A stretch of DNA of 32,486 bases, from assembly GCA_900318465.1 (NCBI GenBank), contig ONKQ01000031.1, positions 1 through 32,486 of the forward strand, in the 5' to 3' direction. The stretch is from an uncultured Bacteroidales bacterium. GTDB taxonomy: Bacteria; Bacteroidota; Bacteroidia; Bacteroidales; F082. Positions 3,957-9,634 of this stretch are shown here, piece after piece. The notes under the pieces are model-generated. The model had not been told where the DNA came from. It saw only the letters and a program-made list of their open reading frames with translations, and searched no databases. The first letter of the stretch is position 1, and each line of letters opens with the position of its first letter. A program made the translations under genes and the position numbers.

Positions 3957-5399
3957 TCAAGCGAATAACGCGCCCAAAGTCACCACTTGCTGAATCACGC
4001 CGCTGTGGGCGTTGTGTTTCAAGTTTACCGTTGTCACCAAAGTCAGGTGTACGATTTGCTTGAACGACAATTGCTCTTGCAAAGTGGCGATTCTCGCTCG
4101 AAGTTTCATCTCATCGTCGGCAGTCGGCTCGTATTCTTTCGAGAGGAACTTCATTTCGCACAGGTTGACTACGCGGTCGTCGCGCACGATGAGCATGTCG
4201 ATTTGCGTCCCGCTGTGGTCGTTGTCGCCGCGCACAACCCAAGCCGATTCTTTCGAGGCCACGTTTTCAACTCCCAACGCACGCTTGATTTGGCCGACAT
4301 GTTCGAAGCAGACTTGCTCGAAAGTAATGCCTCGCCAAGCGTTGAGCGATGGCATGTTTTGGTTGTGTTGCCAAAAGGAGCGGTCTGTAATGTTTTGGTT
4401 ATCAATGAAATTAAGATAAAAACGGCAGAATGGGTCAATGAGTTTGTAGCGGATTTCCTTTTTGCTTTGGCCGAAAGGGTGATAACTTTCGATGAAGTCG
4501 CTGGCCGCGAGCGTTTCGAGCATCTTGCTGAACGTTCCGCCCGGATTGACACCGAGACTTTTGGCCAACTCAATGCGCGTGAAACCGATGTGTTTTTTCG
4601 CGAGCAATCTAACCGCCGCCATATACGCCTCCGGATTGACAAAGAGCGAGCCAAACAGCCGTTGAAACTCCATGTCGAGTTTCGCGTTTCTTTCAAACAG
4701 CAATAAATCAACGTTTTGTGCAAGGCTTTTTCCTTTTTGGAAATAGTTGAGATAGTAAGGTATGCCGCCGAAAATCATGTATGCCTCCACTATGTCATAG
4801 TCCGACATGGCGATACCTTTTCGCTTGAAAAATGTCTTGCACTCGGCCAACGTGAACGGCGACAACTTGATTTGCCAAGTCAGGCGGTCGTAGAGGCCAC
4901 CTTTGTTATTAATGAGGTTGTCGAGCATCCACGAAGTTGCGCTGCCACAAACAATGAGCATCACACGGTCGCGCCACGCACCCCATGTGTTCCAAAAATG
5001 CTCGAAAGCCACCAAGAATTTGGAGCGAGGCGAATCCATCCAAGGCAACTCGTCGATAAAGATGACTTGCCGTCCGCCGTCATCGAGTTCGTCAAGCAGT
5101 CGTCCCAACATCCTGAAAGCCTCCATCCACGACTGCGGGCAACTGCTTTCGGCCATGCCGTGTTGCGTCAAACTGGAATAAAACGCCTCAAGTTGGTCTT
5201 GCATGTCAATCTTGCGTTCCTTGTCGAAAGGCGACAGCCCACTGTGATAAAAGGCCATTTTGTTTTGAAAGAGTTCTTTCACGAGATAGGTCTTGCCCAC
5301 ACGGCGACGGCCATAAATGGCGACAAACTCCGCTTTCCCACTGTTATAGAGATTGTTAAGTTCTTCAATTTCTTGCTTCCGTCCAATGATTCTGTCCAT
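3957..5399 (-). CDS. AAA ATPase with C-terminal DUF234 (PD-(D/E)xK-like) domain, copy 1
   Basis: The 480-residue protein begins with an Arch_ATPase-type P-loop domain: Walker A GRRRVGKT (30-37), Walker B VIFIDE (112-117), and a sensor-like IVCGSATSW (149-157). A winged-helix-like middle follows (about 262-305). The end is a DUF234 domain with nuclease-type residues: D401 in TQIDMLIV and E415-M-K417 in LCEMKF. It is a clear paralog of the protein at 7635-9050, sharing blocks such as NAWxGxxFExVCFxH. The cellular role of this family is not established; it is often present in many copies per genome. A tandem inverted-repeat unit overlaps its promoter. Whether it cuts DNA is not known. Confidence 0.85.
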   Translation of the reverse strand: MDRIIGRKQEIEELNNLYNSGKAEFVAIYGRRRVGKTYLVKELFQNKMAFYHSGLSPFDKERKIDMQDQLEAFYSSLTQHGMAESSCPQSWMEAFRMLGRLLDELDDGGRQVIFIDELPWMDSPRSKFLVAFEHFWNTWGAWRDRVMLIVCGSATSWMLDNLINNKGGLYDRLTWQIKLSPFTLAECKTFFKRKGIAMSDYDIVEAYMIFGGIPYYLNYFQKGKSLAQNVDLLLFERNAKLDMEFQRLFGSLFVNPEAYMAAVRLLAKKHIGFTRIELAKSLGVNPGGTFSKMLETLAASDFIESYHPFGQSKKEIRYKLIDPFCRFYLNFIDNQNITDRSFWQHNQNMPSLNAWRGITFEQVCFEHVGQIKRALGVENVASKESAWVVRGDNDHSGTQIDMLIVRDDRVVNLCEMKFLSKEYEPTADDEMKLRARIATLQEQLSFKQIVHLTLVTTVNLKHNAHSGVIQQVVTLGALFA

Positions 5400-5410
5400 T
5401 TTTGTCCTAT

Positions 5411-5509
5411 ATTTGGCCGCAAAGATACAAAAACTTTTCGATGCGGCTGAATATATAGGTGTTTATTTGGCCGCAATTGCATAAAAATACCTTGATTCGG
5501 CTGAATATA
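5411..5509. repeat. Two tandem 45-bp imperfect inverted-repeat units upstream of ATPase copy 1
   Basis: Unit 1 (5411-5455) and unit 2 (5465-5509) both start ATTTGGCCGCAA and end CGGCTGAATATA, with a diverged centre and a 9-nt spacer. Each is an imperfect palindrome; in unit 1 GCCGCA (5416-5421) pairs with TGCGGC (5442-5447). Unit 1 includes the -7 element of the ATPase gene. Unit length is close to the 48-bp palindromes around the second ATPase, though the sequence differs. Confidence 0.7.
5420..5427 (-). promoter_or_regulatory. Bacteroidota -7 element (TATCTTTG) for ATPase copy 1
   Basis: The minus-strand TATCTTTG matches TAnnTTTG, 21 nt upstream of the start at 5399. It lies inside the proximal 45-bp inverted-repeat unit, so a protein binding that unit would affect this promoter. 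Confidence 0.5.
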
Positions 5510-5517
5510 AATCAGAA

Positions 5518-6402
5518 TCAAATCCAAATCACCTCAAAATTCTTGAGCAAATCGTTGACTTTTTCAACATCATCCGTGAAGCCCAAAACATAGCCGCCAC
5601 CGCCTGAACCAGAGATTTTTACGCCGAAATTGAAACCAAAATCGGTCGTGAAAAGGTCGAGCGTGTTTTCGGTTATCATCGGGCGAAGGAACTGCAATTG
5701 GCCTTGGGTAAGTTGTTTCAACGATTTGAAAAACAACTCTTTATTGCCTTCAATCATTGAATTAATGCAGGAAGTCACACAAGGCACATACTCCGATTGG
5801 AATCGGTTCAAAAACTCGGGATGCTCGCGCTGTGCTTTGAAATGATTGACCAAAGGCTTGGTATTGCTCTTTATCTTTGTGTCAATCAAGCAGATGTGGA
5901 TGTCTTTTTTGAGGAAATCATCCGAAAGTAACTCAACACCTTTTGGCGTGATTTTGAATGGCTGACCAAGGTAGCATTGCAAAGGGTCGATGCCGCTGCT
6001 GCTTCCGTGGAAATGACTCTCCATTAGGCCGAAAAGGGTTTTCAGTTGCAGGCAGTCATCGGTTTTTTGTATGGCGTAACGGTCGTAAACCGCCGCGACC
6101 AACGTTCCCGAACTGCCCAAACCATAGCCCGAAGGCACATTGGAAGCGAGGAACAAACCTTCGTTCAAGTCTTTATTAAAAGATTGAAAGTCAAAGAGAT
6201 TCGATAATTCTTGGTTTTCAGAAAGATATTTGCAAAACTGCTTCAAACTATGGTTGGAGGGAAGTGATGAAGCAAGATTCCGACTTTGCGGAAACTGCCA
6301 TTGCGCCGAAAAGCGTTTCAGTGGAATCATCAGCGCGGTGGCATCGAAAATCATCGAATACTCTCCGAAAAGGATGACTTTGCTATAGTAACGGTCTCTC
6401 AT
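5518..6402 (-). CDS. mvk: Mevalonate kinase (GHMP family)
   Basis: The 294-residue protein shows the three GHMP motifs: KVILFGEYSMIFD (8-20) at the N-terminus, PSGYGLGSSGT (90-100) as the phosphate-binding loop, and KISGSGGGGYVLGF (262-275) near the C-terminus. HGSSSGIDPLQCY (132-144) resembles the mevalonate-kinase active-site region with its catalytic Asp. Mevalonate kinase converts mevalonate to 5-phosphomevalonate in the cytosol. Its ATG shares one base with the stop of the decarboxylase gene (TAATG), so the pair is translationally coupled. Within GHMP kinases, mevalonate kinase is preferred because the adjoining gene is a decarboxylase of the pathway and a second kinase sits at 14828. 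Phosphomevalonate kinase activity is a less likely alternative. Confidence 0.75.
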   Translation of the reverse strand: MRDRYYSKVILFGEYSMIFDATALMIPLKRFSAQWQFPQSRNLASSLPSNHSLKQFCKYLSENQELSNLFDFQSFNKDLNEGLFLASNVPSGYGLGSSGTLVAAVYDRYAIQKTDDCLQLKTLFGLMESHFHGSSSGIDPLQCYLGQPFKITPKGVELLSDDFLKKDIHICLIDTKIKSNTKPLVNHFKAQREHPEFLNRFQSEYVPCVTSCINSMIEGNKELFFKSLKQLTQGQLQFLRPMITENTLDLFTTDFGFNFGVKISGSGGGGYVLGFTDDVEKVNDLLKNFEVIWI

Positions 6403-7472
6403 TACAACAACTTTTTTGGGCCATTGCCCACTTTATCAATAATCCACTGATTACCAACACAATAATCTACCAACCTACGTTCCACAAAATAGCCAATTTC
6501 CTTGGCCACAATTTCGGGATATAGTAAATGCACATTGGGTCCGGCATCCAAAGTGAAACAAAGCGGAATGTGGGACTCGTTTCGGAAAGCCCTGACTTCC
6601 TCAATGATACGCAAGGTGTTGGGTTTCATCAAAATAAAGGAAGGATGGGAGCACATCATCAAAGCATGAAGTTGCATCGCTTCCGACTCGCTTATATCAA
6701 TAAAAGTGTCCAAATCACCTGATTTCAAGGCCATGAGCAGGTTCGTGACATTATCGTTGGCTTGTGCATAACGCGCTGAAGCATAAGGATTTCCTTCCAT
6801 TAATGCGTGGCCAGCACGACTGGAAACGGATTTTTTTGCATCGCTGACGACAAGGATGCTGTCATGGAAGGTCTTGAATACAGGATGAATGTCACTTTCC
6901 AACGTAACGGCATACTCGTCGGAACTGCTTTCATAAGCCGCTGTTGCGCCCCATAGTGCCATTTTCGGAAACACTGACCTCGCCGCGCTGCCAGAAGCTA
7001 AACGGGAGAAATAAGAAGCTTTCTTCATATCAATGTTTTTGCCAACCATCTGACTTTCAATGTTCAACAAGCACATCACAAAAGCACTCATCGAGGAGGC
7101 CGAAGAAGCAATGCCAGAAGAATGTGGGAAGGTGTTGCGGCTCTCAACTTTCAGATTCAGTTGATTAATGAAAGGGAAAAACGACTGATTCTCAAGTAGA
7201 AACTTCTCGATTTTCGCGCCAAAAGCGGAGTTTTCCTTGCCCTCGAAAAAGAATTGGAAACCAAATTTTTCGGCTTTTTCAAAATCAACGAATGTCTCGG
7301 AGCGACATTCCGACAATGTAAAACTAATTGACGGATTTTGAGGAAGTTGTTTTCCTTTTTTGCCCCAATATTTCACCAAGGCAATGTTAGATGGGCATTG
7401 CCAGCCCACTTTGCCTTGAAAGCCGCCCGACATCTCGCCCTTGAAGGCCTCGTTTAACCATTTGTTTTCCAT
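6402..7472 (-). CDS. mvaD: Diphosphomevalonate decarboxylase
   Basis: The 356-residue protein carries the decarboxylase hallmarks: SNIALVKYWGK (28-38), HSSGIASSASSMSA (117-130), SGSAARSVFP (160-169) and TLDAGPNVHLLY (307-318) with the catalytic Asp at 309. It converts 5-diphosphomevalonate to isopentenyl diphosphate, CO2 and phosphate using ATP. This gene is transcribed first in the pair with mvk. Just upstream is a near-consensus -7 sequence, and 71 nt upstream begins the palindrome that brackets the divergent ATPase gene, so the two genes share an intergenic region. The family call is strong. Confidence 0.9.
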   Translation of the reverse strand: MENKWLNEAFKGEMSGGFQGKVGWQCPSNIALVKYWGKKGKQLPQNPSISFTLSECRSETFVDFEKAEKFGFQFFFEGKENSAFGAKIEKFLLENQSFFPFINQLNLKVESRNTFPHSSGIASSASSMSAFVMCLLNIESQMVGKNIDMKKASYFSRLASGSAARSVFPKMALWGATAAYESSSDEYAVTLESDIHPVFKTFHDSILVVSDAKKSVSSRAGHALMEGNPYASARYAQANDNVTNLLMALKSGDLDTFIDISESEAMQLHALMMCSHPSFILMKPNTLRIIEEVRAFRNESHIPLCFTLDAGPNVHLLYPEIVAKEIGYFVERRLVDYCVGNQWIIDKVGNGPKKLL

Positions 7473-7492
7473 TTCCGATGTGTTTTGCGCTG

Positions 7493-7500
7493 CGAAGATA
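7493..7500 (-). promoter_or_regulatory. Near-consensus -7 element (TATCTTCG) for mvaD-mvk
   Basis: On the minus strand TATCTTCG differs from TAnnTTTG at one position. It lies 21 nt upstream of the mvaD start, the usual distance in this window. Confidence 0.3.
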
Positions 7501-7542
7501 GGAAATTATTTGGATTCCTTTGTCACTTTGTGAATGATGTGT

Positions 7543-7592
7543 TTATAATCTGCTCAATTTGGCAAAAAAAATCGAAATTGAGCAGATTATAA
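7543..7592. repeat. Left palindrome of the ATPase-DUF234 cassette
   Basis: TATAATCTGCTCAATTT (7544-7560) is followed after a 14-nt loop by its perfect reverse complement (7575-7591); one more pair (7543/7592) extends it to 18 bp. It sits between mvaD and the promoter of the ATPase gene. The same arms and loop length recur after the gene at 9064-9111. Confidence 0.95.
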
Positions 7593-7605
7593 TTCTTGTT
7601 TTTCA

Positions 7606-7613
7606 TATTTTTG
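7606..7613 (+). promoter_or_regulatory. Bacteroidota -7 element (TATTTTTG) for ATPase copy 2
   Basis: TATTTTTG matches TAnnTTTG and lies 21 nt upstream of the ATG at 7635. The right arm of the palindrome ends 13 nt before it, where the -33 region would be, so a protein bound to the palindrome could control transcription. Confidence 0.5.
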
Positions 7614-7634
7614 CAACTGTAAAACACTTGTAAA

Positions 7635-9050
7635 ATGATAGGAAGAAACCAAGAGAAACAGGAATTGATGGATGCGTATCAATCTGATTATTCGGAGTTT
7701 GTCGCAATTTATGGTCGGCGGCGCATTGGCAAAACATTTCTCGTCAGGGAAACATTCGACTATCAATTTACCTTCCAACATTCTGGCAACTCACATGCGC
7801 CAATGGAGAAGCAACTTGAGGCTTGGTTTGCCTCGCTGAAAAACTGTGGATGGAAGGGCGAAAAGATTCCCGAAACTTGGATTGAGGCTTTTGCCATGCT
7901 CAACGAACTCATCAAGGCATCGCGTAGGAAACGCAAGGTGGTTTTCATCGACGAAATGCCGTGGATGGACACGCCCCGTTCCTTTTTTGTTTCGGCATTG
8001 GAATATTTTTGGAACAACATGGCCTCGGCGCGGAGGGATGTACTACTCATCGTTTGCGGCTCGGCTACCTCGTGGATTATCAATAAAATCATCAAGAATC
8101 ATGGGGGCTTACACAATCGGGTGACGCGACAAATACAATTGCAGCCCTTCACCTTGAACGAATGTGAGCATTATGCAAAAAGCATGAAATTGGCTTTCGA
8201 CCGTTATGCCATCATCAAAGGTTACATGGTTTTTGGAGGGGTGCCCTATTATTGGTCGTTGTTGAAAAAAGGACTGAGCATCGACCAAAACATTGACCAA
8301 CTGGTTTTCAATCCAATGGGCCGCTTACATTCTGAATTTGACGAATTGTATGATTCCTTGTTCCGCTCGCCAGGGGATTACATCAAAGTGGTGACGGTGC
8401 TGGGACGGGTTAAGATAGGCATGACCCGTGAGGAGTTGATTGAAAAAGGAAAAATCACCAATAACGGCAAGTTGAGCAGGATTCTTGGCGACCTCGAACA
8501 TTGTGGATTCATTAGGAAATACAGGGCTATCGGAAGTGCTCAGTATAAAGCGATATATCAATTGATGGACAGTTTTACCCTGTTCCATTTCAAATTCGTC
8601 CAAGAAAACAAGACCAACGACCCTGACTTCTGGATGCACAGTATTGACACGCCGACCTACAACGCTTGGAATGGTTTGGCTTTTGAACGGGTTTGTTTCC
8701 AGCATGTTGCGCAACTGAAACAGGCTTTAGGCATCAGCGGGGTGCAAACCAATGTTTTTGCTTGGCAGGTTGAAGCGTCGGATGACGGTCATGCTGGCGC
8801 ACAAATTGACATGGTCATTGACCGCGACGACCATGTGGCCAATCTCTGTGAGATGAAGTTCTCCGACGAGGAATACCGCCTCAATTCGGCAGAAGACAAG
8901 CGTCTAAAGCACCGAAAAAACAGGCTTCAAGAAGTTCTTCCCAAGCAAAAATCCATCTTCATCACCTTAATCACTCCATACGGATTGGTACGCAATGAAT
9001 TTGCAAGCAATGTTCAGAATGAAATTACTGGTAATGAATTATTTAAATGA
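7635..9050 (+). CDS. AAA ATPase with C-terminal DUF234 (PD-(D/E)xK-like) domain, copy 2
   Basis: The 471-residue protein has Walker A GRRRIGKT (27-34), Walker B VVFIDE (102-107), the IVCGSATSW sensor-like block (139-147), and a DUF234 end with D392 (AQIDMVI) and E406-M-K408 (LCEMKF). All predicted ATPase and nuclease-type residues are intact. It is a diverged paralog of the 3957-5399 protein. The gene runs opposite to mvaD and the downstream lipoprotein gene and is bracketed by identical palindromes. Known facts stop at the domain level; the family's function has not been clearly shown. A self-mobilising or addiction-type role is speculative. Confidence 0.85.
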   Translation: MIGRNQEKQELMDAYQSDYSEFVAIYGRRRIGKTFLVRETFDYQFTFQHSGNSHAPMEKQLEAWFASLKNCGWKGEKIPETWIEAFAMLNELIKASRRKRKVVFIDEMPWMDTPRSFFVSALEYFWNNMASARRDVLLIVCGSATSWIINKIIKNHGGLHNRVTRQIQLQPFTLNECEHYAKSMKLAFDRYAIIKGYMVFGGVPYYWSLLKKGLSIDQNIDQLVFNPMGRLHSEFDELYDSLFRSPGDYIKVVTVLGRVKIGMTREELIEKGKITNNGKLSRILGDLEHCGFIRKYRAIGSAQYKAIYQLMDSFTLFHFKFVQENKTNDPDFWMHSIDTPTYNAWNGLAFERVCFQHVAQLKQALGISGVQTNVFAWQVEASDDGHAGAQIDMVIDRDDHVANLCEMKFSDEEYRLNSAEDKRLKHRKNRLQEVLPKQKSIFITLITPYGLVRNEFASNVQNEITGNELFK

Positions 9051-9063
9051 ATGTTTGTAAAAT

Positions 9064-9111
9064 TATAATCTGCTCAATTTTGTAAAAATAACACAAATTG
9101 AGCAGATTATA
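9064..9111. repeat. Right palindrome of the ATPase-DUF234 cassette
   Basis: TATAATCTGCTCAATTT (9064-9080), a 14-nt loop, and the perfect reverse complement (9095-9111). Arms and loop length are identical to the left palindrome at 7544-7591, while the loop sequence differs apart from an A-rich centre. It begins 13 nt after the ATPase stop codon. Confidence 0.95.
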
Positions 9112-9166
9112 TGCTTAAAACAGATGGCTTTTGGAAGAGGCTTCCTTTCGTTTTACCCTCTTACAT

Positions 9167-9634
9167 TCATCGGACGAACATCAAATTCGTGTCAGACCCA
9201 AAAGTGACCTCGAATTGGAAATAGTCGCGCTCGTCCTTCTTGATGCAGACGGAGTAGGTTTGTCCCAACTTCAGGTTTTCGATGATGATGTCCAAATGGC
9301 GACCGCACAAGCAATCGGCCCACGAATCATCATAGAGCAGTTCGATGGAGATGTTTTGTTCCTGCGTTTGGATTTCAGGTCGGATGGTGTCAACGTCGCA
9401 ATAGAATGGCGTGTTTGTAGTGCTGATTTTCAACTTCGTGTCGTCAACGGCGGTCGCGTAAATCGTGTCATTCTGTTCATTGTCGCGATGGAGAACGATG
9501 TCGTTGCATCCCGAAACGAAGAAGCCGGAAACCTTGGGCTGCTGTGCCTCTTTCTTGTTGCATCCCTCCAAGGCGAGGAATCCGATGACGAAAAGCGCCG
9601 TCAGGGCGATGATGGTTTTGATAGATTTGTTCAT
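9167..9634 (-). CDS. Hypothetical lipoprotein
   Basis: The 155-residue product has a lipoprotein signal: hydrophobic stretch then ALEGC, with the lipidated Cys at residue 25. The mature part contains several Cys residues (for example SGCND and DCLCGRH) and beta-rich segments, suggesting a small Ig-like fold stabilised by disulfides. I do not recognise the family. It is monocistronic, with a -7 element upstream, and ends 55 nt from the right palindrome of the ATPase cassette. Confidence 0.65.
   Translation of the reverse strand: MNKSIKTIIALTALFVIGFLALEGCNKKEAQQPKVSGFFVSGCNDIVLHRDNEQNDTIYATAVDDTKLKISTTNTPFYCDVDTIRPEIQTQEQNISIELLYDDSWADCLCGRHLDIIIENLKLGQTYSVCIKKDERDYFQFEVTFGSDTNLMFVR

Follow-up and report, generated by a model that had tools for sequence, protein, structure and literature searches.

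Positions 7543-9111 of the stretch of DNA analysed here (the window; 32,486 nucleotides from an uncultured Bacteroidales bacterium) are best explained as a single-gene mobile unit of about 1.57 kb whose protein would read its own palindromes, a reading to which we assign a probability of roughly 0.57. The case for it rests on comparative evidence throughout, which makes a gut-bacterium gene now catalogued among candidate antiviral defences look like a small mobile element. We infer that the protein itself moves the unit.

Organization of the unit

The features of the unit are as follows.

7543-7592, no strand: upstream palindrome (U), 18-bp arms 7543-7560 and 7575-7592 around an A-rich 14-nt loop; probable left end of the mobile unit and probable operator
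7606-7613, plus strand: -7 promoter box of the Bacteroidota type, TATTTTTG (TAnnTTTG), 13 nt past the U palindrome, assigned from sequence
7635-9050, plus strand: gene for a 471-aa AAA+/STAND ATPase, winged-helix and PD-(D/E)xK protein (PADLOC PDC-S27; Pfam ATPase_2), assigned from profiles and models
7713-7736, plus strand: Walker A motif, residues 27-34 (GRRRIGKT), from a 61-sequence alignment
8415-8528, plus strand: winged-helix region predicted at residues 261-298, its putative recognition helix spanning 278-289, from the model, a PHROG match and covariation
8463-8465, plus strand: codon of residue 277, beside the putative recognition helix
8592-9047, plus strand: C-terminal PD-(D/E)xK nuclease-like domain with E351, D392 and E406-M-K408 (8850-8858)
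9064-9111, no strand: downstream palindrome (D), 17-bp arms 9064-9080 and 9095-9111 as in U, 14-nt loop of different sequence; candidate right end of the mobile unit

The palindromes share the arm sequence TATAATCTGCTCAATTT. As stated in a preliminary description of this DNA, their 17-bp arms are identical at 7544-7591 and 9064-9111 and their 14-nt loops differ in sequence; the arms of U lengthen to 18 bp when its limits are set at 7543-7592. A single ORF of annotated size (7635-9050, plus strand) occupies the interval between them, where no second gene-sized ORF was found outside the ATPase frame, and hence no cognate methyltransferase in the unit. The enclosed gene is indeed opposite in strand to both its neighbours, with mvaD to the left (6402-7472) and a small gene to the right (9167-9634) both on the minus strand. 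The latter appears lipoprotein-like by eye from its N-terminus and has no Pfam match.

When up to three mismatches are allowed the arm is matched four times within the window, against a chance mean of 0.23, and none of 100 shuffles reached four. The same search of the 3.67-Mb genome gave 16 matches compared with seven for a reversed control pattern. Four of these are exact and belong to the window's two palindromes, one has two mismatches and 11 have three; no arm with fewer than two mismatches was found elsewhere in this genome. Perfect-core palindromes with the window's arm are present in five of 99 genus genomes (its own included), seven palindromes in total.

TAnnTTTG is the consensus of the Bacteroidota -7 box. 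Scans for sigma-70 promoters (five found, 3.5 expected) and for terminators (four, with 2.4 expected) were not telling. An Rfam scan of 7300-9400 returned 14 matches, nearly all of them hairpin models of the miRNA type over the palindromes; none reached the gathering score and RNA hairpin families were set aside as chance matches.

The encoded ATPase-nuclease

The protein matches the PADLOC PDC-S27 profile PDLC04984 along its full length (residues 1-470, E = 1.6e-196). It carries Walker A and B motifs in an ATPase_2 fold, as an AAA+/STAND ATPase should, and the P-loop noted previously is intact: within GRRRIGKT, residues Gly27, Arg28, Arg29, Arg30, Gly32, Lys33 and Thr34 are invariant in the 61 aligned sequences. 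The preliminary description had also assigned an ATPase-DUF234 architecture with a PD-(D/E)xK-type end. The latter assignment stands, with E351, D392 and K408 invariant and E406 nearly so in the alignment of 61, forming the E..D..ExK signature within an alpha-beta core fold. The DUF234 label does not, since the match to PF03008 (19.2 bits, E = 0.0017) falls below the gathering threshold of 22.5 bits.

Structure models were predicted with a pLDDT of 93.0 (93.8 for the C-terminus) and place helices at residues 265-272 and 278-289. Residues 248-301 give a weak match to a transcriptional-regulator PHROG (E = 0.0032). Searched against Pfam up to E = 10, the protein matched ATPase-type families, DUF234 and one chance-level beta-propeller but no Y1 transposase, and neither this search nor the ORF list revealed a known transposase or integrase within the unit.

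Matched palindromes across the family

Loci are labelled L and genomes G, with G000 the window's own genome. There, 29 matches to the protein were found, 24 of them full length without stops (L017-L040). An upstream palindrome (score at least 11, at most 350 nt upstream) was called in 20 of these 24, of which one or two, for example that at L034, may be due to chance; none was called at L027, L028, L029 or L018. Eleven of the 24 have an arm-matched pair, and at L018 an imperfect matching pair is visible by eye. L027 is a second full-length paralog within the window (3957-5399, minus strand, 44% identical); upstream of it (5400-5515) we noted by eye an imperfect palindrome, CTATATTTGGCCGCA...TGCGGCTGAATATATAG, and a second one like it, neither of them called by the scan.

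The survey was extended to 22 further loci from the genus and 80 from other genomes. In all, 119 of the 126 loci were usable, the exclusions being L144, which was not parsed, three whose start had been misread (L018, L092 and L118) and the duplicates L068, L084 and L114; many loci derive from related genomes, hence the counts are not independent. Of 117 loci, 71 have a palindrome scoring at least 13 in the 200 nt upstream and 56 have one in the 150 nt downstream. Such a palindrome is present in one of 107 stretches taken 1000-1200 nt upstream, and when each flank was shuffled once with dinucleotides preserved, none appeared in the 117 sequences from either side. A palindrome is absent on one or both sides in 56 of the 119 loci. 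Where both sides have one, the arms match in 52 of 63 and mismatch in 11, and over the 52 matched pairs the identity between U and D is 0.907 in the arms (1546/1705 positions) and 0.725 in the loops (530/731), as if both ends were maintained for their arms. The expectation that other genes of the family would have paired flanking palindromes was therefore borne out.

Between loci, arms match in 72 of 74 ordered pairs at 80% protein identity or above, in 39 of 70 at 65-80%, in 90 of 890 at 55-65% and in 100 of 2872 below 55%. The arms are lineage-specific and track the protein. Lone family palindromes with no gene nearby make up 12 of 145 distinct palindromes in 329 loci, a sample biased by retrieval.

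PDC-S01 genes of the same genome, which encode related ATPase-nucleases, were taken as a control (25 parsed of 30 loci fetched, from 66 profile matches). An upstream palindrome scoring at least 11 was found in 10 of the 25 and a downstream one in three, so a weak upstream palindrome alone is uninformative. A matched pair was present in one of 25, and PDC-S01 was dropped as a second palindrome-bearing family. Upstream of one PDC-S01 gene (L044, G000:C103, about 52.7 kb) lie several direct repeats of the GGAAAAAGTCCCCTTTTT type, and this family may have non-palindromic sites of its own. With 66 PDC-S01 profile matches (some of which are PDC-S27 genes) and 24 full-length PDC-S27 genes, G000 carries a heavy load of ATPase-nucleases.

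Probable recognition of the arms and overlap with the promoter

Covariation between protein and arm was assessed with 63 representatives less than 75% identical, with overall identity removed and 2000 permutations. Only protein windows 261-280 (partial r = 0.179, p = 0.002) and 271-290 (partial r = 0.240, family-wise p = 0.0005) predict arm similarity family-wise. This strongly suggests that the winged helix is the part of the protein that reads the palindrome arm, and lends support to the earlier proposal that the palindromes are sites recognized by the encoded protein.

Residue 277 was compared with arm content in 37 sequences with Asn and 15 with Gly, nine with Ser and two others being excluded. 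CCAAA occurs in the arm of 11 of 15 with Gly277 and 6 of 37 with Asn277 (family-wise p = 0.0002 over all 5-mers, by label permutation), and the opposite tendency is seen for CGGAA (1 of 15 and 14 of 37; p = 0.075). The residue was picked after the covariation results had been seen and the 5-mer test is thus not independent of them; grouping by residues 276-277 instead gave Fisher p values of 0.06 and 0.21.

Of the 61 loci whose strong palindrome lies at most 75 nt from the start, 51 have a TAnnTTTG box; among 93 control segments, each 60 nt long and taken downstream of the genes, six do. The box most often follows the palindrome by 13 nt (12 loci) and then by 12 nt (six loci), and the expected -33 region overlaps the upstream palindrome in 47 of 61. 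A role in self-control, also raised in the preliminary description, is supported by this overlap. Self-control and a function as ends of a mobile unit are not mutually exclusive, since both are supported and the upstream palindrome overlaps the promoter region.

Boundaries of the unit and gene-free sites

The window unit shares 86.5% DNA identity over 7543-9111 with a copy in G022 and 80.6% over the same interval with L145, in each case with no BLAST match of the flanks. Homology with L046/L068 and with L145 starts at 7543 and stops at 9111. L019 and L080 are 95.6% identical over 1577 bp ending at the palindromes, and comparable edges are seen for L057/L062 (79.2%), L102/L107 (83.2%) and others. 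In pairs from the same locus, such as L021/L058, similarity continues into the flanks; some units (L021/L058/L065 and others) are kept at one locus across species and resemble resident genes. No target-site duplication is present beyond the palindromes in 58 of 59 units. Recent horizontal transfer is not claimed from genes that are 96% identical, because the flanks common to the same congeners are about equally similar.

Empty sites were sought by comparing the joined flanks of eight own-genome units with 99 genus genomes, scoring at most three candidates per genome among the matches listed. Forty regions were fetched. Of the 37 examined, nine, at four loci, have one palindrome and no gene (G077, G030, G012, G050, G007, G097, G016, G090 and G029, the last with an extra half). 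They include the L035 locus in G077 (45 nt), the L036 locus in G030 (49 nt) and the L019 locus in G012, where the copy is worn, as are all three one-palindrome regions at L019. The remainder comprise nine regions with the gene, three with a lone palindrome on the left flank only (G073, G018 and G074), one in which palindromes flank a decayed gene (G061), and 15 with neither gene nor lone palindrome. Six of these 15 were read more closely and no family palindrome was seen in them.

The lone copy at L036 is the same as the downstream palindrome in five of the seven relatives that have the gene there, and the idea that it was a hybrid was dropped. At L022 the copy in G029 equals that in G061; other lone copies differ in the loop. 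Five genomes were examined at L035, with the gene in G000 only and a lone palindrome in G077, G073, G018 and G074. The simplest account of this distribution is that the gene was gained where a palindrome already stood; the tree behind it is that of one gene, mvaD, on which the G000 copy has a long branch. The loop of this lone palindrome is inverted in G018 (L254) relative to G073, G074 and G077 (L253, L255 and L256), as if flipped.

The L019 locus in G055 and G078 has no palindrome. Other genes occupy the L019 insertion point in G071, with a 419-aa ORF carrying a P-loop by eye (L270), and in G094, with several ORFs (L271); the point may be an insertion hot spot. Lone palindromes with the window's own arm occur in G091 and G094, that in G094 beside 54 bp of the right flank of L145. 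A lone palindrome may be a target, a scar or both.

The window locus in congeners

In nine congeners (G077, G018, G072, G074, G031, G002, G055, G078 and G068) the ATPase gene is missing and 97-99 bp separate mvaD from the lipoprotein-like gene, so that the empty site sought between these two genes exists and the locus is not always occupied. No family palindrome was seen by eye in the nine spacers. The spacer of the window (7511-7542 and 9112-9170; 32 and 59 nt) did not align with those of the four congeners tried. The suggestion that the palindromes are ends of a minimal mobile unit is supported by the homology that stops at their outer edges and by one-palindrome empty sites, but a clean insertion at this locus is unsupported, since the spacers of relatives do not align and the junction cannot be read. 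We also note that mvaD (6402-7472) has 80-86% DNA identity to its counterpart in congeners, and that the lipoprotein-like gene of these same congeners is 95-97% identical to the window's; the part of the window left of about 9171 may have been acquired by recombination.

Plasmid and phage relatives

Matches were found in seven of 50,697 phage records and 132 of 72,556 plasmids, and seven relatives, two of nearly the same sequence, were fetched. An upstream palindrome was called in six, placed 49 nt before the start in the Butyrivibrio and Emticicia relatives and further off elsewhere. A matching downstream palindrome was found in none of the seven, three of which are from Bacteroidales or gut phage. 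The upstream site is more widespread than the pair, which favours the operator as the older role. Such relatives fit an operator better than unit ends and count against the mobile unit; so far, the bounded unit is known from the own-genome, genus and other-genome loci surveyed. Among viral contigs one stretch fits a peptide pattern and no relative was confirmed. In Wolbachia phage WO (MN180249, L328) a relative annotated as an archaeal ATPase fused to DUF234 adjoins phage head genes, and upstream of it two tandem palindromes of the ACCGCGGTAT...ATACGCCGCGGT type, uncalled by the scan, were noted by eye.

Proposed mechanism and alternative explanations

We envisage a family of single-gene units of about 1.55-1.7 kb, each consisting of a palindrome, a promoter, the ATPase-nuclease gene and the same palindrome again. 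One protein subunit would occupy each palindrome arm, and the upstream palindrome, lying over the -33 region of the promoter, would repress the gene. The ATPase would assemble at the palindromes and the PD-(D/E)xK domain would cut there, with entry and exit by recombination between palindromes and host repair, the single palindrome being target or scar. New lineages would arise as the recognition helix and the arms change jointly. To our knowledge a PD-(D/E)xK domain alone joins no strands, which counts against a unit moved by its own protein.

The position of the upstream palindrome over the promoter region (47 of 61) would equally be expected of a self-regulated candidate defence gene, with an upstream operator and a downstream second site for control, looping or self-protection, spread by ordinary homologous recombination and lost by recombination between repeats of about 48 bp. 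The plasmid and phage relatives (upstream palindrome in 6/7, matching downstream in 0/7) and the match to the PDC-S27 model (E = 1.6e-196) agree with such a gene, and repeat recombination would leave one-palindrome empty sites. Ordinary recombination, however, would not set edges at the palindromes in unrelated loci, and the L035 pattern (gene in G000 only, lone palindrome in four genomes) fits gain better than repeated loss, on a one-gene tree. We consider this explanation unlikely, if a serious contender. Were it correct and the protein not the mover of the unit, the result would instead be a novel variation on self-regulated genes.

That no known transposase or integrase lies within the unit would also follow if the ATPase gene were cargo, its palindromes serving as att-like sites for an enzyme (integrase or transposase) from outside the unit, and the ATPase using them only as operators. 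The lone palindromes without a nearby gene (12 of 145 in the retrieval-biased sample) are in keeping with this, but an outside enzyme common to all units would be expected to act on common sites, whereas the lineage-private arms follow the protein's own recognition helix, and we judge the idea improbable. Least credible, and very improbable in our view, is that the palindromes are ordinary bidirectional transcription terminators to which the genes are adjacent by happenstance. In some, as at the L035 locus, the stem is indeed preceded by an A-run and followed by a T-run; however, the T-run is found with just 15 of the 58 palindromes downstream and 20 of the 73 upstream, and with neither of the window's, the arms travel with the gene between loci, and such palindromes occur in one of 107 distant flanks.

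Comparison with known systems

Returning to the mobile unit, we rate it as new in kind because no known recombinase family fits. It is possible, at somewhat under even odds, that some PDC-S27 genes represent a new class of one-gene mobile element in which an ATPase-winged-helix-nuclease recognizes its own palindromes and moves between them, helix and arms diverging together. If so, many orthogonal PDC-S27 copies could coexist in one genome, and recombination would here run on a system that lacks any known transposase. If many PDC-S27 genes are mobile elements with private sites, then defence counts change and an expanded ATPase family of unknown function gains a testable role. The diverged helix-palindrome pairs would provide a ready-made set of protein-DNA specificities.

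An integron gene cassette, which carries an attC site and is inserted by IntI, bears some resemblance to the unit. The absence of a cognate methyltransferase sets the unit apart from restriction-modification systems. If the palindrome is taken as the site, it also differs from a homing endonuclease, since both palindromes are whole in occupied units and one is found in empty sites.

The family is catalogued in PADLOC, where PDC-S27, which corresponds to our protein across its full length, is described as a single-gene phage defence candidate. PDC-S27 has been presented as candidate immunity consisting of an ATPase fused to PD-(D/E)xK, with 4562 systems in bacteria and 3503 in archaea within the immune repertoire (PMC12988326), and as a candidate defence with 2865 in rumen genomes (PMC13356809). 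The available portions of these two papers mention neither palindromes nor gene mobility for PDC-S27 and report no antiviral test of it. The open-access PMC literature, a library that mostly excludes subscription papers and preprints, held no description of such a unit. The archaeal ATPases SSO1545 (2fna) and PAB2304 (2qen) are 14-15% identical to the protein, with the nuclease-like end outside the aligned range.

IS1272 (PMC5678879), in the portion of the account available, likewise targets inverted-repeat structures without target-site duplication. Unlike the window unit, it encodes a transposase, carries inverted repeats at its termini and is described as replacing the target repeat; the unit, with a single ATPase-family gene and no transposase match, does not fit this or other DDE insertion sequences. 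A parallel in layout may be drawn with RAYT/REP systems (PMC2817692, PMC3733652 and PMC3116915), which, as far as the available text of these papers goes, likewise comprise one gene with cognate palindromes that are also found gene-free. RAYTs are tyrosine transposases, whereas the window protein combines an ATPase, a winged helix and a nuclease and lacks the Y1 HUH transposase of the RAYT and IS200/IS605 group. REPs are usually dispersed in more than 100 copies per genome, in contrast to the PDC-S27 units, where each gene has two palindromes and lone copies are few.
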